In this document: positions 37,341-46,686 of the stretch, piece by piece
Position numbering within the stretch: position 1 is the first letter of the stretch
Layout: each line of letters starts with the position of its first letter
Assembly (NCBI GenBank): GCA_012523545.1
Contig: JAAYIH010000027.1
Location: 79,073-143,072 of the forward strand
Direction of reading: 5' to 3'
Length of the DNA: 64,000 nt
From: Bacillota bacterium
Lineage (GTDB): Bacteria > Bacillota > Proteinivoracia > UBA4975
Notes under the pieces: generated by a model
The model's database searches: none
What the model was told of the DNA's origin: nothing
The model's input: only the letters and a program-made list of their open reading frames with translations
Translations under genes and position numbers: made by a program

Positions 37341-37787
37341 CTAGTTAAACCTGTTTTTGTAGGCGTTGAACTTTGGCCGGGCAGTAATCTTGCCGTTTGC
37401 CCGCAAGTTGCAAAAGTTGACTGAGTATTTTCCCTTGCTTAGCCCGCTTTTCAGGCGAAGGGATGTGGAAACAAGTTCCAGCGAAGGAATCACCCAGTAG
37501 GTATCGATGAACTCGGAGTAAAAATTAAAATAGTCATTGGGCCGGGGGTTGTTAATTTCGAAGGTGGAAAAACGCCAGGCGTTCCTGGGGTTACAATCTT
37601 TGGAGCGGGCTTTTACCTGGATATCGATGTACCGCGGTTCCCGACTGTTCAGCCGAACAATGCAATCAATACCCTTGTCATCCACAAAGGTCTGGTAAAC
37701 ATCGTACCCGCGCCTGAGCAACTCCGCGATAACGGCATATTCCTGCCGCTTCCCAAATGAAGCGGAACTGTTAATATGGTTTGGCAT
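37341..37787 (-). CDS. Putative PD-(D/E)XK nuclease-like protein (DUF4365-like)
   Basis: 148 aa from ATG 37785-37787 with GAGGAG about 9 nt upstream; an ATG at 37820 lacks a ribosome site. The N-terminal GKRQEYAVIAELLRRGYDVYQTFVDDKGIDCIVRLN ... YIDIQVKAR fits the PD-(D/E)XK layout: Glu in helix 1, D in GIDCIV, then Q-V-K replacing E-x-K. This is common in DUF4365 and Holliday-resolvase-like proteins. Codon and base use are clearly AT-richer than the neighbours, suggesting transfer. Substrate unknown; a defence role is speculative. Confidence 0.6.
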   Translation of the reverse strand: MPNHINSSASFGKRQEYAVIAELLRRGYDVYQTFVDDKGIDCIVRLNSREPRYIDIQVKARSKDCNPRNAWRFSTFEINNPRPNDYFNFYSEFIDTYWVIPSLELVSTSLRLKSGLSKGKYSVNFCNLRANGKITARPKFNAYKNRFN

Positions 37788-38062
37788 TACAATTAACTCC
37801 TCTCTAGGGTAACGCAACATATACTTGTCTTTTTACTTATTGCTTGTATGGGCTGTGTGGTTTGCATTTACTTCATTCTACTACCACATTTTTCCATAAA
37901 AAGGTTTCTATAAAGGCAATTTTCGCATGCAATCCTTTTAATTTCGCCTTTATGCAGGCTACACAGATTCCCGGCCTCAAGAGTCGCACCGAACTATCCA
38001 GTGGGATCAATGACGGATGAGCGGATTGCGCGAAACCGCTGCAATACTTTATTCTTGTAAAG
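37788..38062. other. AT-rich intergenic stretch
   Basis: Part of the 352-bp gap between divergent genes. No frame with a ribosome site, no tRNA and no terminator seen in it. The creatininase operon operator and promoter follow at 38063. Confidence 0.5.
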
Positions 38063-38080
38063 TTGTGTCGCAGGACACAA
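38063..38080. promoter_or_regulatory. CRP/FNR-type operator upstream of the creatininase operon
   Basis: Perfect palindrome TTGTGTC-GCAG-GACACAA, with 7-base arms and 4-base centre, the size of CRP/FNR family sites. If the TAAAAT at 38101-38106 is the -10, the site centre (38071.5) falls at -41.5, the standard class II activation position. The operon ends with a CRP/FNR family gene. Confidence 0.7.
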
Positions 38081-38100
38081 TTTTATTTTGTCAGCCGGGA

Positions 38101-38106
38101 TAAAAT
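38101..38106 (+). promoter_or_regulatory. -10 element of the creatininase operon
   Basis: TAAAAT, one mismatch to consensus. No good -35 at the right spacing, as expected for an activator-dependent promoter. Confidence 0.55.
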
Positions 38107-38139
38107 AAGGACAATGAAAAAGAAAAAGGAGGTGAGTTC

Positions 38140-38916
38140 TTGGTAAACAAAGTATGGTTGCATCACAACAGCTGGGATGAGGTTGCGGAGTATCTGAAGC
38201 GGTCGCAGGTCATCATTATTCCCGTTGGCAGCATTGAGCAGCATGGGGAACACTTGCCACTGGGGACGGACACAATGGTCGCCGAAGCCATTGCCCAGTC
38301 CGTTGCCGAGCAGGCAGGCGTACTGACGGCGCCTGCGGTAAGTTACGGCTGGAGCCCGCACCACATGGTTTTGCCCGGCACAGTAACCATCCGCCCCGAA
38401 GTTCTCATTGAATATCTCTACGATGTTATCGAAAGCCTGGCTCAACACGGGTTCAAAAAGTTTTTGCTGCTGAACGGCCATCGCATTGTCAACATCAGCT
38501 GGATGCAAATTGCCGGAGAGCGGGCGAAGCGGAAGCTGGCGGTGGATGTCCTGGTAGCCGATCCGGCCTATCTGTCCAAGGAGCTGGCAAAGCAGGAAGG
38601 AATGGGGCTCATAGGCCATGCCGACGAGCTGGAAACCTCTCATATGCTCTATGTTCGCGGCGAATTTGTGCAAATGGAAAAAGCCCGGGATTTTTCCCAC
38701 CAACGTCCGGACTACAAGCAGGTGGATCCCCGGGTAGAAAAAGACACTCTCTGCTATGTCCCCAGCACCAAAGAGGAAATGGGCGAGTCGGTCAGGGCGG
38801 CCGGAGGTACATCGGGGCAACCCACCAGATCCTCTGTTGAGTTCGGCGCCAAATACCATGATTGGGTGGTAGCGAAGCTGGTCACAATCATTAAGGAATG
38901 GCAGATAAGTAACTAG
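38140..38916 (+). CDS. Creatininase-family amidohydrolase
   Basis: 258 aa, TTG 38140 after AAGGAGGTGAG. Metal-site motifs of the creatininase family: PVGSIEQHGEHLPLGTDT (Glu and His, Asp), LLLNGHRIVN (usually NGHGGN; here altered) and GLIGHADELETSHML (GHAxExETS). Family members cleave cyclic or linear amides such as creatinine or formylated intermediates; substrate is not known here. First gene of an operon with a small membrane subunit and a sodium:solute symporter, suggesting uptake and breakdown of one compound. The NGHRIV variant could mean an unusual substrate. Confidence 0.83.
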   Translation: MVNKVWLHHNSWDEVAEYLKRSQVIIIPVGSIEQHGEHLPLGTDTMVAEAIAQSVAEQAGVLTAPAVSYGWSPHHMVLPGTVTIRPEVLIEYLYDVIESLAQHGFKKFLLLNGHRIVNISWMQIAGERAKRKLAVDVLVADPAYLSKELAKQEGMGLIGHADELETSHMLYVRGEFVQMEKARDFSHQRPDYKQVDPRVEKDTLCYVPSTKEEMGESVRAAGGTSGQPTRSSVEFGAKYHDWVVAKLVTIIKEWQISN

Positions 38917-38967: not shown

Positions 38968-39237
38968 ATGCCTGCTGCGAAGAAGGAAAGTTTGATTGTA
39001 GCGGTCTTTTTTATCATCACCCTGCTCATGACCAATCCGCCCGTGGTGAACTGGGTCAGCGCCTATGCCGAGGAAAATCCTCTGCTCTTCGGCTGGCCCA
39101 CACTGTGGGTATGGTTGCAGGTCTGGTACCTGCTCATGATCGGCGGCCTGATTTGGTTTGGCCTCAAGTTTAAGAGTTGGAATGTGGAGTACATCGAAGA
39201 GTCGGTAGAGGGACATCTGGACGGGGGTGACAAATAG
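38968..39237 (+). CDS. Small membrane subunit of Na+/solute symporter (DUF3311-like)
   Basis: 89 aa, two hydrophobic helices near residues 8-24 and 45-65. The NPPVVNWV and FGWPTLWVWLQVWYLLMIGGLIWFG pattern fits small proteins that accompany SSS-family transporters. Its TAG stop overlaps the GTG start of the symporter by one base, so translation is coupled. Confidence 0.75.
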   Translation: MPAAKKESLIVAVFFIITLLMTNPPVVNWVSAYAEENPLLFGWPTLWVWLQVWYLLMIGGLIWFGLKFKSWNVEYIEESVEGHLDGGDK

Positions 39238-40727
39238 TGGAAAACTGGATGCTCGGCACTGCAATAATCGGCATTTACCTGGCGCTCACGCTGTATATCG
39301 GCTATCGTAGCTGGAAGGCAAGCCAAAAATATGAGAACAGTATCGAAGACTTTGCTGTGGCCAGCGGTTCCTTTGGCATCTTAGTGCTCACCCTGACCTT
39401 TGCCGCTACTTTCCACAGCGCATACGCCTTCACCGGCATCGTCGGGTTTGTCTACAATGACGGCGTAGGATTTTGGGTCAACGGTCTGTGGCTGGTGCCC
39501 CCTGCTCTGTTGTTCTGGATCTTCGGTCGCCGCCTGTGGATTTTGGGCAAGAAACACAAGTTTTTCTCTTTGGCTGAGTATATGGCCAAATTTTATAACT
39601 CCGACTTAATTGGTCTGTTAACTGTTCTAATTCATGCGGTATTTATCACGCCCTATATCGGCATCCAGCTGACAGGTTCAGGTTATATCTTCGAAACGGT
39701 AACTGAAGGAATGATTCCCTTTGCCCTGGGCGCCACAGTCATGATGGTTATTCTGATCATTTACGTCTGGGCAGGGGGTATGCGGGCTGTGGCCTGGACC
39801 GACACATTCCAGGGCATCTTTATGTTCATTGGGATTTTGCTCGGCAGCTGGCTGATTGTCCGCAATGTGGCCGGATCGGCGACGGCTGCTTTCCAGGAGG
39901 CAGTTCAAGCAATACCGGAGTTCTTCTCGCTGCCGGGGCCCTCGGGAGCGATTACGCCAGGGAACTACATTTCCCGCTGGGTGGTCACCTGCCTGGGAAT
40001 GGCCATGGGGCCGCACATCATTATCCGGATGTTCACGGCCAAGTCTTTGAAGGTCCTGAAGTGGTCCAGCATTCTCGGCGCAGTTTACCTTACCGTCATC
40101 TACTGGTTTACGCCGGCCGTTGGCGCCCTGGCCCGGGTCATTTCGCCCGGTGCAGCGCGTCCCGACCAGTTGATGGTCGACTACCTCTGGCAATATACAC
40201 CGGTAATATTTGCGGCAATTATGCTGGGCGGCGGGTTCGCTGCCGCCATGTCCACCGCCGATTCCCAGGCCCACGCCGTGGCGACAACTGTATCGGTGGA
40301 CCTTTACAAAAAGCATATTAAGCCGAATGCCACCTCCCGGCAGTTGACCATGGTTTCCCGCTGGATGATCGTCATCCTGTCGCTGGTTAGCTTGTACATC
40401 GCCATCACCAGTCCTCAGGCGCTGGTCAACTTGCTGGCAATCTCCACCGGCGGCATCGCTCAGTTGACGCCCGCTTTTGTCGGCAGCTTGTATTGGAAGC
40501 GGTCCAGCAAGGCCGGAGCCCTGGCCAGCATCATCGGCGGCCTGGCTGCTCTGATTATCACTCAGTTCTACTGGGTTAACCCCTTTGGACTTGGCGTGTT
40601 GGCGCCCTTCTGGGGCTTGGTTGTCGGCAGCATCCTGTTTGTCGTCGTCAGCCTGATTACCCCGCCGGTGGACGAGAAGACCATTGAGGAAACCCAAGTA
40701 TTTGCCACCGAGGTAATCAACGGATAA
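39237..40727 (+). CDS. Sodium:solute symporter (SSS family)
   Basis: 496 aa, GTG 39237. About 13 hydrophobic helices; LeuT-fold SSS motifs such as FAVASGSFGILVLTLTFAATFHSAYAFTG, YVWAGGMRAVAWTDTFQGIFM, MAMGPHIIIRMFTAKS and the sodium-site region GGGFAAAMSTADSQAHAVATTVSVDLYKK. Brings in an organic solute with Na+. Substrate unknown; the linked creatininase-family enzyme suggests an amide or cyclic amide. Followed by a hairpin, then a CRP/FNR regulator. Confidence 0.9.
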   Translation: MENWMLGTAIIGIYLALTLYIGYRSWKASQKYENSIEDFAVASGSFGILVLTLTFAATFHSAYAFTGIVGFVYNDGVGFWVNGLWLVPPALLFWIFGRRLWILGKKHKFFSLAEYMAKFYNSDLIGLLTVLIHAVFITPYIGIQLTGSGYIFETVTEGMIPFALGATVMMVILIIYVWAGGMRAVAWTDTFQGIFMFIGILLGSWLIVRNVAGSATAAFQEAVQAIPEFFSLPGPSGAITPGNYISRWVVTCLGMAMGPHIIIRMFTAKSLKVLKWSSILGAVYLTVIYWFTPAVGALARVISPGAARPDQLMVDYLWQYTPVIFAAIMLGGGFAAAMSTADSQAHAVATTVSVDLYKKHIKPNATSRQLTMVSRWMIVILSLVSLYIAITSPQALVNLLAISTGGIAQLTPAFVGSLYWKRSSKAGALASIIGGLAALIITQFYWVNPFGLGVLAPFWGLVVGSILFVVVSLITPPVDEKTIEETQVFATEVING

Positions 40728-40743: not shown

Positions 40744-40768
40744 GCGGCCCTGCTTTTGGAAGGGCCGC
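40744..40768 (+). terminator. Terminator-like hairpin after the symporter
   Basis: 8-bp stem GCGGCCCT (40744-40751) with AGGGCCGC (40761-40768), 9-base loop, followed by a T-rich stretch broken by AC. May be leaky, allowing some read-through to the regulator. Confidence 0.7.
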
Positions 40769-40840
40769 TTTACTATTTTAGCAGGATTCAGCACGGCCTT
40801 TGGCGTATTATTGTGTACTAACATTACAGAGGGCCTGCAT

Positions 40841-41533
40841 GTGGATGGGTTGTTATTGAAGCTTCTGGGCGACTGCGGCGTAGTAAGGGCCTATAATCCC
40901 AACGAGATTATTCACCTGGCCCATATACCTCCGGAAACCGTTTTTCTTATTCACGAAGGGAAAGTCAAGCACTTGGTTTATAATGAGAACGGCGAAGAAA
41001 AGATCCTCCTCATCCTGAAGGAGGGCGATATCTTTGGCGAGGTGACCTATTTTCAGCAGGACGCCAACATGGTGGTAACCCAGGCCATCAGTCCCTGCCG
41101 GATCGCTTCAATTCCCGCAACCAAGTTTCAAAAAAAGCTTGAAGAACACCCCGAGTTATATCCCGAGATTGTCAGGTTGCTTACGTACAAGATGCGGATA
41201 GTTATGTCCCAAATCAAGGATATGGCCTTCCAGAACGTTGAAGGACGGCTGGCCAATCTGCTCCTGCGCCTGGCCGACCAACAGGGCAAGGTGACAGAAT
41301 CGGGGCATGTTATGATCGACTTCGATGTTACCCATCAGGAACTGGCCAACATGATTGCGGCCTACCGCTCTACGGTATCCAGGATAATGCGCCGTCTGTG
41401 TATGCATCAAATCATCCGGGTGGTACAAAAGCGGGTAACAATCCTGGATTATTTGGGTCTGCAGCAAATCGCCAATTCTAGTTCTGAACAGAAAGAAACG
41501 CCACCAGAGGCGCGGGCAAGAGGCTTACCCTGA
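40841..41533 (+). CDS. CRP/FNR-family transcriptional regulator
   Basis: 230 aa from GTG 40841, 7 nt after AGAGGG; the frame extends upstream but through the hairpin. N-terminal cyclic-nucleotide-binding-like barrel (IIHLAHIPPETVFLIHEGKVKHLVYNENGEEKILLILKEGDIFGEV), dimer helix, then HTH_Crp (VTHQELANMIAAYRSTVSRIMRRL). No FNR-type cysteine cluster at the N-terminus is evident, so the signal is unclear. Likely regulates the linked operon through the palindrome at 38063-38080. Confidence 0.88.
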   Translation: MDGLLLKLLGDCGVVRAYNPNEIIHLAHIPPETVFLIHEGKVKHLVYNENGEEKILLILKEGDIFGEVTYFQQDANMVVTQAISPCRIASIPATKFQKKLEEHPELYPEIVRLLTYKMRIVMSQIKDMAFQNVEGRLANLLLRLADQQGKVTESGHVMIDFDVTHQELANMIAAYRSTVSRIMRRLCMHQIIRVVQKRVTILDYLGLQQIANSSSEQKETPPEARARGLP

Positions 41534-42095: not shown

Positions 42096-43109
42096 ATGCC
42101 CGTGCTCGACAAACGCCTGGAACTTGGCCACCTGCCCACTCCCCTGGAACGGGCGGACAAGCTGACAGATTTCCTGGCCGGCCCCCGGATATTTATCAAG
42201 CGGGACGATGCCACCGGCCTGGCCGGAGGCGGCAACAAGGTCCGCAAGCTGGAATACCTGGCGGCAGCTGCCCTGGAACAGGGCGCCAACTGCCTGGTCA
42301 CAGTAGGCGGTCCCCAGTCCAACCACGCCCGGTTGACCGCTGCTGCAGCTGCCCGCCTGGGTTTAAAGTGCCGCCTGTATTTACAGGGCCAGGCTCCCCG
42401 GAAACTGGCGGGCAATATCCTTTTGGACAGGCTGCTGGGCGCCGAGCTGGTTTTCTGCGGCGAAGCCGGGTACCCGGAAATCTATGCGCAGATTGACCGG
42501 GACGGGGCCAGGCTGAGGGAGCAGGGCGTGGAAATATATAAAATTCCCGTGGGCGGTTCAACCCCCGTCGGCGCTCTGGGCTATGTCCGGGCGGTGACGG
42601 AAGAGCTGGTTCCTCAGTGCCGGCAGGCGGGGTTGAGGCCCGCGGCTATTATTGTCGCCGCCGGCTCCGGCGGCACCATGGCGGGACTGATGCTGGGTCT
42701 GGCTGTGGCCGGCTGGGAAGTTCCCGTTTGCGGGTACAGCGTCGGTCCCGACGCCCGGACCCTGCAGCGGGAAGTGGCCGACATCCACAACGGGGCCGCC
42801 CGGCTGCTGGGGGTGCCCCACTGCATCCAGCCCGAACAGGTTTGCATTGACGCGACTCCGAGCGGGACCGGTTACGGCATTGCCACGCCGCAAGCCCTGG
42901 AGGCTCTCGCCCTCTTCGCCCGCCTGGAAGGGATACTCCTGGATTCGGTTTACACCGCCAAAGCCGCCGCCGGCATGATTGCCGACATCCGCCGGGGCAG
43001 GTGGAAGGACGAAGCCGTTGTTTTCCTGCACACCGGCGGCTGGCCGGCGCTTTTTGCCAAAGACGATGTGGAATTATGGCTGCGCGAGGAGGGTGAGCAG
43101 TGCCGTTAA
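42096..43109 (+). CDS. dcyD: D-cysteine desulfhydrase / ACC deaminase family PLP enzyme
   Basis: 337 aa, ATG 42096 behind AAGGAGG. Family blocks: LPTPLERADKLTD, IFIKRDDATGLAGGGNKVRKLEY (Lys of GGNKxRKLE is the PLP Lys), VGGPQSNHARLTAAAAARLGL and AAGSGGTMAGLMLG. The family includes D-cysteine desulfhydrase (to pyruvate, H2S, NH3) and ACC deaminase; the residues separating the two cannot be fully judged by eye. First gene of a five-gene operon with peptidase and asparaginase genes; overlaps the next gene by 10 bp. Confidence 0.83.
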   Translation: MPVLDKRLELGHLPTPLERADKLTDFLAGPRIFIKRDDATGLAGGGNKVRKLEYLAAAALEQGANCLVTVGGPQSNHARLTAAAAARLGLKCRLYLQGQAPRKLAGNILLDRLLGAELVFCGEAGYPEIYAQIDRDGARLREQGVEIYKIPVGGSTPVGALGYVRAVTEELVPQCRQAGLRPAAIIVAAGSGGTMAGLMLGLAVAGWEVPVCGYSVGPDARTLQREVADIHNGAARLLGVPHCIQPEQVCIDATPSGTGYGIATPQALEALALFARLEGILLDSVYTAKAAAGMIADIRRGRWKDEAVVFLHTGGWPALFAKDDVELWLREEGEQCR

Positions 43110-43798
43110 TCGCAGTAACCTGCATGTACGATGACAAAGAACGGCGGAGTTTCCTCAAGGACGGCTACATACAGGCCCTGGAAAGGGTTGGCGCCGTTGC
43201 CGCCGTGTTGCCGCCGTCCCTCTCCCCCCAGGCCAGCGCTCAGGCGCTGAGCCGCATGGACGGTTTGCTCCTCAGCGGGGGAACGGATGTGGCGCCCCTG
43301 CGTTACGGTCAACAGCCCCGCCCCAACCTGGGGCCGGTTGACCCGCTCCGGGATGAACAGGAATTCGCCCTGGTGCGGAAAGCCATTGAGCTGGGCTTGC
43401 CCATCCTGGGTATCTGCCGGGGCATGCAAGTTATCAATGCCGTTTTGGGCGGCGATCTGATTCAACATATAGACGGGAACATTCAGCATCAACAGCAGGC
43501 CCCGGGCTGGCACCGCCATCACAGCGTACGCATCGAGCCCGGCACAATCCTGGCCCGGGCGCTGGGCCGCAGCGAGCTGGGTGTCAACAGTTTCCACCAC
43601 CAGGCCGTGGGCACGGTGGCTCCCGGGCTCAAGGTCAGTGCCCGCTCCCCCGACGGCATCATTGAGGCCGTCGAAAGCAGCGAGCCCTGGATTCTGGCGG
43701 TGCAATGGCACCCCGAGCTGATGTGGCAGCGGCATGAAGAGTTCCTGGCCATATTCCGGGCCTTTGTGGGCGCCTGCAGGGGCGAAGAGAATGGGTAA
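43100..43798 (+). CDS. Class I glutamine-amidotransferase-like hydrolase (PuuD type)
   Basis: 232 aa, GTG 43100 within the dcyD end. Nucleophile elbow GICRGMQVINA with catalytic Cys, and the His-Glu pair in VQWHPELM. The LLLSGGTDVAPLRYG block and HHQAV loop are typical of gamma-glutamyl-gamma-aminobutyrate hydrolase (PuuD) relatives, which cleave gamma-glutamyl amides. In this operon of amide- and peptide-cleaving enzymes, it likely hydrolyses gamma-glutamyl compounds. Exact substrate unknown. Confidence 0.83.
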   Translation: MPLIAVTCMYDDKERRSFLKDGYIQALERVGAVAAVLPPSLSPQASAQALSRMDGLLLSGGTDVAPLRYGQQPRPNLGPVDPLRDEQEFALVRKAIELGLPILGICRGMQVINAVLGGDLIQHIDGNIQHQQQAPGWHRHHSVRIEPGTILARALGRSELGVNSFHHQAVGTVAPGLKVSARSPDGIIEAVESSEPWILAVQWHPELMWQRHEEFLAIFRAFVGACRGEENG

Positions 43799-44861
43799 AA
43801 GGCTGCGGGATTGGGGGATAATTTTGCCCGGTCTCCCCCCGGGAAAGCTCAATGCCATCACCGATGTCCGGGGCGTTGGCGTAGGCCACTGCACCGTCAT
43901 CGAAGGCGACTCCATCCGCACCGGCGTCACCGCCGTCCTGCCCCACCCGGGCAATTTGTTTGTGCACAAGGTGCCGGCCGCCGTGGAGGTAATCAACGGG
44001 TTTGGCAAAGCCGTCGGCCTCAGCCAGGTCAAAGAACTGGGGGAAATCGAGACGCCCATAATCCTTACCAACACCCTCAGCGTCGGCGTCGCTCTGGACG
44101 CCCTGGTGGAATACAAGCTGGAACGCAACCCCGAAATAGGGCGCAAATTTCCTACCGTCAACGGCGTGGTGGCGGAATGCAACGACGGTTTCCTCAACGA
44201 CATCCGCGCCCGGGCCGTCACCCGCCGGCACGTCCGGGCCGCCATCGCCGCCGCCGGTACCGGGTTGCCCCGGGAAGGCAATGTGGGGGCGGGAACGGGC
44301 ATGTCTTCCTTTGACCACAAAGGCGGCATCGGCACCAGTTCCCGGGTGGCCGAGCCTTATACCGTAGGGGTGCTGGTGCTGAGCAACTTTGGGCGCTGGC
44401 CCCAGTTGAAGATTGCCGGTGTGCCGGTGGGTCAATTGCTGCCCGGGCCCCAACCGGCCGGGCAGGAGCAGGGTTCCATAGTCATCATCGTGGCCACCGA
44501 CGCGCCCCTGGACGCCAGGCAGCTGGGCCGCCTGGCCAGGCGGGCGGGCTTTGGTCTGGCCCGCACCGGCTCGGTGGCCGGTCACGGCAGCGGCGACTTC
44601 GTCATCGCCTTTTCCACCGGCGTCAACTGCCAGGCCGTTGACCAGGACCGCCTGGCGGCAGAACGCCTGCGGGACGACAAGCTGGAACCTCTTTTTCAGG
44701 CCACGGTGGAGGCCACCGAGGAGGCCATTCTCAACGCCCTGTTTGCCGCAGAAGCCATGGAAGGGCGCGACGGCAACAGCCGCAAAGCCCTGCCGGTGGC
44801 AGATATCCTGGAGATTCTGAGCAAGTACCGCGCCATTAACAAGGGGAGGAATGACATTTGA
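43791..44861 (+). CDS. P1-family aminopeptidase (DmpA/BapA-like)
   Basis: 356 aa, ATG 43791 overlapping the previous gene by 8 bp. DmpA family: N-terminal LNAITDVRGVGVGHCTVI, NTLSVGVALDALVEY, NDGFLNDIRAR. The self-cleavage point of the family is Gly-Ser before the second-chain start; here G228-S229 in EQGSIVIIVATDAP. Ntn-like hydrolase that releases N-terminal residues; family members include L-aminopeptidase/D-esterase and beta-peptidases. Cytoplasmic, no signal peptide. TTGA overlap with the next gene. Confidence 0.88.
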   Translation: MGKRLRDWGIILPGLPPGKLNAITDVRGVGVGHCTVIEGDSIRTGVTAVLPHPGNLFVHKVPAAVEVINGFGKAVGLSQVKELGEIETPIILTNTLSVGVALDALVEYKLERNPEIGRKFPTVNGVVAECNDGFLNDIRARAVTRRHVRAAIAAAGTGLPREGNVGAGTGMSSFDHKGGIGTSSRVAEPYTVGVLVLSNFGRWPQLKIAGVPVGQLLPGPQPAGQEQGSIVIIVATDAPLDARQLGRLARRAGFGLARTGSVAGHGSGDFVIAFSTGVNCQAVDQDRLAAERLRDDKLEPLFQATVEATEEAILNALFAAEAMEGRDGNSRKALPVADILEILSKYRAINKGRNDI

Positions 44862-45874
44862 AGCAAGCGGAAGTATTGGTGGAAGTAACCCGGGGACCGT
44901 TGGTGGAGAACTGGCACCGGGGGCATGTGGCTGTAGTGGACTGGCAGGGGAAGTTGCTGTACAGCGCCGGCGACCCGTATCACATTACGTACTGGCGCAG
45001 TTCGGCCAAACCCTTCCAGGCCTTGCCGGTGGTGGAGTCCGGCGCCGCCGACAGGTTCGGCATTACCCCCCGGGAACTGGCCCTGTTCTGCGCTTCCCAT
45101 AATGGTGAGGAGATGCATACCGAAACGGTCAAGGGCATCTTTGCCAAGCTGGGTAAAGATCCTGCCCTGCTTCAGTGCGGGGTGCACATGCCCTACCATG
45201 CGCCCACCGCCAAGGCCATGCTTCGGGCGGGGCAGGAACCCACGCCTCTGCACTGCAATTGCTCGGGCAAGCATTCGGGCATGCTGGCCTTATGCGTCCA
45301 TCTGGGCTATGACCCGGGCACTTACCTGGAGCCGGACCACCCCGTCCAGCAGCTAATCCTGGATTATATTGCCGACTTGACCGGGTATCCCCGGGGAGAA
45401 ATAGCCATCGGCATCGACGGTTGCGGCGTTCCCGTCCACGGGTTGCCCGTTTACAACATGGCCTGGGCCTATGCCCGCCTGGCCCGGCCCGCAGGCTTGA
45501 GCCCGCAAAGGGCCGAGGCCTGCCGCCGAGTGGCATCCGCCATGATTGCCCATCCCGAAATGGTGGGCGGCACTGACCGCTTCTGCACCGAACTGATGCG
45601 GGCGGGGGGCGGCCAACTGGTGGGCAAGGCCGGCGCCGCCGGCGTCTACTGCGTGGGCATAATGGATGAAGGCATAGGCATTGCCGTCAAGTGCGAAGAC
45701 GGTTCCGGTAGAGGCCGGGCTCCGGCGGTGGTGGAAATCCTGGCGCAGTTGGGATACCTGGATTCCGGCCAGCTGGAGGCCCTGGCCAAATTCCACCGCC
45801 CGCAAAACCTCAACCACCGCAAGGAAAAATGCGGCGAGGTAATCCCCGTAGTGCGCCTGAAAAAGGAGTGCTGA
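44858..45874 (+). CDS. Type-II-family (rhizobial-type) asparaginase
   Basis: 338 aa, TTG 44858 in TTGA overlap with the upstream stop. Features of the thermolabile R. etli-type asparaginase family (Asparaginase_II): EVTRGPLVENWHRGHVAVVD, YWRSSAKPFQALPVVESG, FCASHNGEEMHTE, CNCSGKHSGMLALC and IGIDGCGVPVHGLP. The CSGKHSGM block has the Ser-Lys pair and Cys of the active site described for this family. Deamidates asparagine to aspartate and ammonia. Distinct from EcAII-type enzymes. Confidence 0.87.
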   Translation: MKQAEVLVEVTRGPLVENWHRGHVAVVDWQGKLLYSAGDPYHITYWRSSAKPFQALPVVESGAADRFGITPRELALFCASHNGEEMHTETVKGIFAKLGKDPALLQCGVHMPYHAPTAKAMLRAGQEPTPLHCNCSGKHSGMLALCVHLGYDPGTYLEPDHPVQQLILDYIADLTGYPRGEIAIGIDGCGVPVHGLPVYNMAWAYARLARPAGLSPQRAEACRRVASAMIAHPEMVGGTDRFCTELMRAGGGQLVGKAGAAGVYCVGIMDEGIGIAVKCEDGSGRGRAPAVVEILAQLGYLDSGQLEALAKFHRPQNLNHRKEKCGEVIPVVRLKKEC

Positions 45875-45876
45875 AC

Positions 45877-46686
45877 GTGAGGGTATTTATATCTGCCGAC
45901 CTGGAAGGCATATCCGGCGTCGTCCACGCCGAACACACCCGCCGCGACGGCCGGGAGCACGATCTGGCCCGGCGCCTGATGACGGCGGAGGTCAATGCCG
46001 CCATTGAAGGGGCCCTGGCGGGCGGGGCCGGCGAAGTGGTGGTCAACGATTCCCACGGCACCATGCGCAACCTGCTGCCCGACCTCCTGCACCCCAAGGC
46101 CCAGCTGATAACCGGTTCGCCCAAGCCCCTGTCCATGATGGAGGGGATTGACGACGGCGCTTACTGCTGCGCAATGTTTGTCGGCTACCATGCCCGCATG
46201 GGCCAGCCGGGGGTCCTCAGCCACACCTACCACGGAGCGGTGGTGCGGGAGGTGCGCCTCAACGGCCGGGCCATGGGCGAGACGGGTATCAACGCCGCTT
46301 TGGCGGGTTATTTTGGCGTCCCGGTGACCCTGGTGACGGGTGACGACCGGGTGTGCCGGGAGGCGGCGGACCTCATCCCGGGGATCGTTACCGCCCCGGT
46401 CAAGCACGCCAGGACCCGGTTTTCGGCCCGCTGCCTGCATCCCCAGGCGGCCTGCGCGCTGATCCGCGCCAGGGCCGAGGAAGCCGTAAGGGCCAAAGTG
46501 GAGCCCCTGGTGCTGGCGCAACCCGTCACCCTGGAACTGAGTTTTCTCCACTCCGGCCAGGCCGAGGCGGTGGCGGGACTGCCGGGGGTGGAAATGCTCG
46601 ACCCTGTCACCGTGAGCTTTACCGGAGATATGCTCCAGACCTTTCGCGTGCTGCGGGCCCTGCTGACCCTGGCGGCGTCGGTGTAA
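45877..46686 (+). CDS. dppA: D-aminopeptidase DppA (M55 family)
   Basis: 269 aa from GTG 45877, after AAGGAG. M55 blocks: FISADLEGISGVVH (zinc Asp/Glu), ARRLMTAEVNAAIEGALAGGA, VVNDSHGTMRNLLP (zinc His), MFVGYHARMG (His), SHTYHG, and GETGINAALAGYFGVPVTLVTGDD (catalytic/zinc Glu). B. subtilis DppA is a decameric zinc D-aminopeptidase acting on D-Ala-D-Ala-type peptides. Last gene of the dcyD operon. Confidence 0.9.
   Translation: MRVFISADLEGISGVVHAEHTRRDGREHDLARRLMTAEVNAAIEGALAGGAGEVVVNDSHGTMRNLLPDLLHPKAQLITGSPKPLSMMEGIDDGAYCCAMFVGYHARMGQPGVLSHTYHGAVVREVRLNGRAMGETGINAALAGYFGVPVTLVTGDDRVCREAADLIPGIVTAPVKHARTRFSARCLHPQAACALIRARAEEAVRAKVEPLVLAQPVTLELSFLHSGQAEAVAGLPGVEMLDPVTVSFTGDMLQTFRVLRALLTLAASV

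Follow-up and report, generated by a model that had tools for sequence, protein, structure and literature searches.

The palindrome TTGTGTC-GCAG-GACACAA, located upstream of a creatininase-family hydrolase gene in a 64,000-nucleotide stretch of a Bacillota genome (the window), is probably the class II operator of a neighbouring CRP/FNR-family regulator and would serve to activate a single local operon. Four supports combine into a convincing comparative case for this assignment: the footprint retained in a related genome (G006), the agreement between Arg180/Ser181 of the regulator (CRP numbering) and TGTGT half-sites, the recurrence of similar sites near related regulators, and a paralogue with the same recognition helix. 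In the proposed mechanism, the regulator, presumably a homodimer, would bind TGTGT-N6-ACACA and, with its signal present, would touch RNA polymerase from -41.5, offsetting the absent -35 element. Transcription of the hydrolase, small hydrophobic protein, and symporter genes would then start near position 38113. The altered half-site, with T for A at position 6, would pair with loss of the glutamate at position 181 of CRP.

Promoter anatomy and gene content

Table 1. Features of the hydrolase-symporter cluster and the adjacent regulator gene, in window coordinates.
Feature	Position	Strand	Details
Extended inverted repeat	38058..38085	.	TAAAG-TTGTGTC-GCAG-GACACAA-TTTTA; arms complementary at 11/12 positions
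Palindromic operator (predicted)	38063..38080	.	TTGTGTC 38063-38069, GCAG 38070-38073, GACACAA 38074-38080; CRP register TGTGT-N6-ACACA; from sequence and G006 conservation
-10 element (predicted)	38101..38106	+	TAAAAT; TAAAATAAGG kept in G006, one base nearer the palindrome
Transcription start (putative)	38113	+	A; deduced from the -10 position
Ribosome binding site	38125..38135	+	AAAGGAGGTGA, before TTG start; GGAGGTGAGTTCTTGGT also in G006
Creatininase-family hydrolase	38140..38916	+	258 aa; TTG start (TTG in G006 too); Pfam PF02633, 217 bits
Small hydrophobic protein	38968..39237	+	89 aa; overlaps symporter start
Sodium:solute symporter family transporter	39237..40727	+	496 aa; Pfam PF00474; nearest named model PanF, below cut-off
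Terminator-like hairpin	40744..40779	+	GCGGCCCT...AGGGCCGC then TTTACTATTTT; between symporter and regulator genes; equivalent in G006
CRP/FNR-family regulator	40841..41533	+	230 aa; GTG start, kept in G006; PF13545, PF00027
Recognition helix of the regulator	41360..41383	+	A-Y-R-S-T-V-S-R; R176 = CRP R180, S177 = CRP E181, R181 = CRP R185

An earlier note on this DNA had given the sequences and coordinates of the palindrome and of TAAAAT exactly. Assignment of TAAAAT as the -10 element (-12 to -7) places +1 at A38113 and the centre of the site, 38071.5, at -41.5, matching the distance claimed in that note. The lack of a good -35 element, also reported there, holds as well, the best match to TTGACA at spacers of 15-19 bases being 2/6. 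Both are marks of class II promoters, in which the site centre lies near -41.5 (-41.5 here and -40.5 in G006, as counted from predicted starts) and the -35 element is poor or absent. This anatomy alone is suggestive, not proof, because perfect palindromes with 7-bp arms and a 4-base loop (7-4-7) are frequent in the window (n=17) and arise in 3.2% of dinucleotide shuffles of the 319-bp intergenic region; the bare palindrome is ordinary by itself. Addition of a TANNNT exactly 20 bases downstream lowers the frequency to 0.13% of the same shuffles, and a 12-4-12 repeat with no more than one mismatch, like that at 38058-38085, appears in 0.1%. An alternative promoter proposed by a consensus scan, TTGTCA-16-GACAAT (38088-38115), is not conserved in G006. 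The 1.73-Mb assembly contains a single exact copy of the palindrome, and a genome-wide site search for a larger regulon returned no second good copy, so the circuit would be local and probably single-target. Weaker matches in the genome were at control level or, among those inspected, lacked promoter-like context.

The regulator gene lies where the earlier note had placed it and is confirmed by Pfam as CRP/FNR; the creatininase-family enzyme and Na+ symporter claimed for the cluster are likewise borne out. More specific assignments are not reached. The hydrolase belongs to the broad Pfam family and scores 115.6 bits against the creatininase equivalog TIGR04448 (cut-off 235), and the transporter scores 195.9 bits against the pantothenate symporter PanF equivalog (cut-off 328). 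The 89-aa hydrophobic protein has no family match in Pfam or NCBIfam, and the cluster proteins fall below the cut-offs of specific named NCBIfam models including creatininase, MftE, IolN, PanF, CRP, and FNR. The suggested unknown amide substrate is unsupported, the creatininase family being broad and the protein scoring below the cut-offs of all of its named NCBIfam members.

The regulator gene is oriented in the same direction as the hydrolase-symporter genes and lies downstream of them. The strong hairpin and T-rich stretch between the symporter and regulator genes suggest that the regulator is probably transcribed mainly alone, on its own transcript and not as the last gene of the operon. 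The view that the operon ends with the regulator is doubtful, as this conserved terminator-like element intervenes both here and in G006. Such a hairpin is also present before the regulator gene of G233, one of two more distant genomes considered below; the other, G363, has no hairpin at this position and a TTGACA-18-TATAAT promoter instead. Of the self-contained regulon envisaged previously, a CRP/FNR-type class II operator that acts locally and belongs to the regulator next door is supported by comparative evidence, and the parts that are not supported are the shared transcript and the amide.

Several features of the surrounding DNA can also be described. Between the hairpin and the regulator gene, the 16 bases of TTTTAGCAGGATTCAG are identical in the window and G006 (window 40776-40791; L041 7969-7984) and may act as a promoter or operator element for that gene. 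Directly downstream, positions 42096-46686 encode a PLP-dependent enzyme, peptidase C26, peptidase S58, asparaginase II, and D-aminopeptidase M55; no copy of the palindrome is found in this cluster of amide and peptide hydrolases. On the opposite side, a divergent gene (37341-37820, minus strand) gives weak, below-cut-off matches to DUF4365 / PD-(D/E)XK endonuclease.

Conservation of the palindrome block in G006

Of ~400 genomes searched across the phylum, one other, G006 (same order, other family), contains an orthologous cluster, and a symporter search of 399 phylum genomes returned G006 only. Creatininases 53-57% identical to the hydrolase occur in six other genomes with no symporter, regulator, or site nearby; the creatininase version of the arrangement is represented by two genomes only, that of the window and G006. 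Identities between the two are 87% for the hydrolase, 82% for the small protein, 87% for the symporter, and 78-80% for the regulator. The G006 symporter gene is split over two frames near residues 28-43 (L041 6447-6575), reflecting a frameshift or an assembly error.

The block TAAAGTTGTGTCGCAGGACACA (38058-38079) is unchanged in G006 at 22/22 bases. Four-fold-degenerate sites are 48% identical between the window and G006 (197 pooled sites), and at this neutral rate a 22/22 match has a chance probability of ~1e-7. Upstream of the palindrome block nothing aligns with G006, and the neighbouring genes differ. Downstream, TAAAATAAGG follows the G006 palindrome at 19 rather than 20 bases, shifting the centre to -40.5, and the best -35 match is 1/6. 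A functionless chance palindrome, an idea that draws on the abundance of perfect 7-4-7 repeats in these 64 kb, appears largely refuted by this conservation against the neutral background, as well as by the fixed spacing and recurrence described below, and is exceedingly improbable. A different G006 palindrome, before another gene (L103), was rejected as a further site; it has 10-bp arms, the look of a terminator hairpin, and no -10 at the right spacing.

The main structural alternative is an intrinsic terminator or attenuator, in which the palindrome would act as an RNA hairpin followed by a U-rich stretch and not as a protein-binding site. The plus strand does fold with 13 pairs (-15.2 kcal/mol) ahead of a U-rich stretch, and the arm differences between the window genome and G006 both fall at G-U-compatible pairs. 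The fold z-score is only -1.96, however, with no Rfam match in the region, and conservation begins at the palindrome, so that no conserved promoter lies upstream; in the window, moreover, the next upstream gene is divergent. The corresponding G363 palindrome is not followed by a T-run (AAAAGAAATT), and a -10 element stands at fixed spacing after all five sites compared below. With this evidence combined, an RNA element is a very unlikely explanation.

Recognition helix and recurrence beside related regulators

The regulator belongs to the CRP/FNR superfamily, with an N-terminal cNMP-binding-like domain and a C-terminal Crp-type HTH; PF00027 scores 56.8 bits and PF13545 scores 62.2, each above its cut-off. 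It does not match CRP or FNR proper. It scores 90.7 bits against the CRP equivalog (cut-off 266) and has R-S-R with a TGTGT half-site in place of the Arg180-Glu181-Arg185 and TGTGA of CRP, the residue equivalences coming from an alignment to relatives in which the motif reads RETV(A/S/T)R. For FNR, the score is 50.4 bits (cut-off 228), and the site is not TTGAT-N4-ATCAA. Arg82 and Ser83 of CRP contact cAMP; counterparts of these residues are not evident in the regulator, and cAMP binding is doubtful.

In published covariation analyses, R180 of CRP correlates with base G3 and E181 with A6 of wTGTGA (Rodionov et al. 2005, PMC1274295). A regulator with Arg180 and without Glu181 is therefore expected to recognize TGTG followed by a base other than A at position 6. 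In the window site G3 is retained and both half-sites carry T6, in agreement with this expectation. The window genome encodes two clear CRP/FNR regulators, and ownership of the site by the second (G000:C13), which has a different helix (VENFSR), or by an unlinked factor must be considered. That protein exists in the genome, yet its helix (TGMAVENFSRK) lacks Arg at 180, which disfavours G3 by the same covariation, and G001, which has a close homologue (TGMTVENFSRK), lacks the cluster and any match to the pattern of the site. The site instead co-occurs with the P0002-type regulator, and assignment to another protein is very unlikely.

A search for the palindrome beside this regulator in the genome and its relatives, as proposed in the earlier note, yielded the 22/22 match in G006 and related sites in G233, in G363, and at a G006 paralogue. 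A contig scan with the regulator alone gave no matches, and a scan with a three-member alignment gave distant relatives only, full-length proteins being at most 37% identical. Among the ~30 distant regulators retrieved with this three-member profile, one, in G233, also contains RSTVSR; the orthologous locus of G363 was examined after that of G233. Both genomes have a DUF969-DUF979-pyroglutamyl peptidase operon followed by a CRP/FNR gene whose product is 33% identical to the window regulator, with Arg-Ser (G233) or Arg-Ala (G363) at positions 180/181. Upstream of the G233 operon is TTGTGTTCTTCAGCACTG-N20-TAAAAT, centred at -41.5, and TTGTGTTCTTCAGCACTG is the only GTG-N8-CAC in 15 kb. The G363 operon is preceded by CTGTGTTAGCCAACACAG-N20-TATAAT, with the same centre and a perfect palindrome (CTGTGTT-AGCC-AACACAG), the sole match to TGTGT-N6-ACACA-N(20,21)-TANNNT in that genome. 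The paralogous regulator of G006 (48-49% identical, identical helix) has TTGTGCCCCAGAACACAG-N20-TATTAT upstream, again centred at -41.5. The paralogue and G233 sites, both imperfect, came from inspection of the DNA close to the regulators.

Across the phylum, 26/399 genomes contain any match to the full pattern, and its 28 matches are barely commoner than the 22 of a reversed control, indicating that the motif is not widespread. Because the G233 genome and several others with matches are AT-rich, TANNNT at the given spacing is by itself weak evidence; the weight of the comparative argument is on the palindrome and its placement.

Position 6 is a base other than A in all ten half-sites of the five promoters, and the distance from the palindrome to the -10 element is 19-20 bases throughout. 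The best -35 matches are 3/6 in G233 and G363 and 4/6 at the G006 paralogue promoter. These comparisons bear on the sign of regulation, since binding at -41.5 can also shield the -35 region and so cause repression. The neighbouring regulator might thus bind the palindrome to block RNA polymerase, transcription depending on weak basal promoter activity or on a different activator, and the site does overlap the -35 region. Such a role is unlikely, however, given that a -35 element is absent in the window and G006 and weak in G233 and G363, and that the spacing kept in all five promoters is what activation requires.

The preferred reading, local class II activation, may extend to a wider group. 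It is conceivable, if speculative, that regulators with Arg180 and Ser/Ala181 form a set that reads TGTGT-N6-ACACA. Each member would be a class II activator dedicated to one uptake-plus-hydrolase operon, of the creatininase-like or pyroglutamyl peptidase kind, and would respond to the small amide or lactam that is the substrate of that operon. The DUF969-DUF979-pyroglutamyl peptidase operons (L173 4589-7737 and L190 4276-7455), which share this operator class and lie next to a CRP/FNR regulator gene, are predicted to form a local regulon for pyroglutamyl compounds. In G006 (L042, G006:C76; 8448-8580), the -41.5 site is followed by ~80 nt in which UCUAAUC and CCCCCC recur and which end in a strong terminator hairpin; the paralogous regulator gene comes next. 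This segment, which has no Rfam match, is possibly a small RNA or leader under control of the paralogous regulator.

Relation to known CRP/FNR systems

Class II promoters and local regulons of the CRP/FNR type are already well known (PMC5957442, PMC1274295, PMC8465061), and the present case is a fairly ordinary local gene-control prediction with no new mechanism. No description of the cluster or its regulation was found in the literature searched, a body from which subscription papers are mostly excluded. What appears to be added is a small regulator group with Ser/Ala181 and TGTGT sites, located beside uptake-plus-hydrolase operons. Several independent lines tie together one regulator, one operator, and one operon, and the pairing of Ser/Ala181 with T6 provides a new data point for the CRP/FNR residue-to-base code. 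The assignment also offers a handle on the hydrolase and symporter, in that whatever activates the regulator would be a candidate substrate.

HcpR of Desulfovibrio, with the motif wTGTGAnnnnnnTCACAw and the targets hcp and frdX (PMC1274295), is likewise a CRP/FNR regulator with few targets, but it differs in having A6 where the window site has T6 and in controlling hcp/frdX in place of a hydrolase-transporter operon. HcpR2 variants of C. difficile and C. thermocellum share Ser at position 181 with the window regulator, and their motif differs from the usual one of HcpR2 (PMC1274295); they belong to a different branch with different targets. Thermus SdrP (TTHA1359), thought to be a class II activator, has TTGTG-type sites beside or overlapping the -35 box (PMC8465061), a placement shared by the window site. 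Its selected consensus, AWTGTRA-N6-TYACAWT, contains A6, however, and its many targets relate to oxidative stress. The arrangement also resembles E. coli CRP class II promoters, with TGTG...CACA in the same register, a centre at -41.5 (PMC5957442), and no good -35 element. In contrast to E. coli CRP, the half-site is TGTGT and not TGTGA, the regulator lacks Glu181, and the predicted control is local rather than global.
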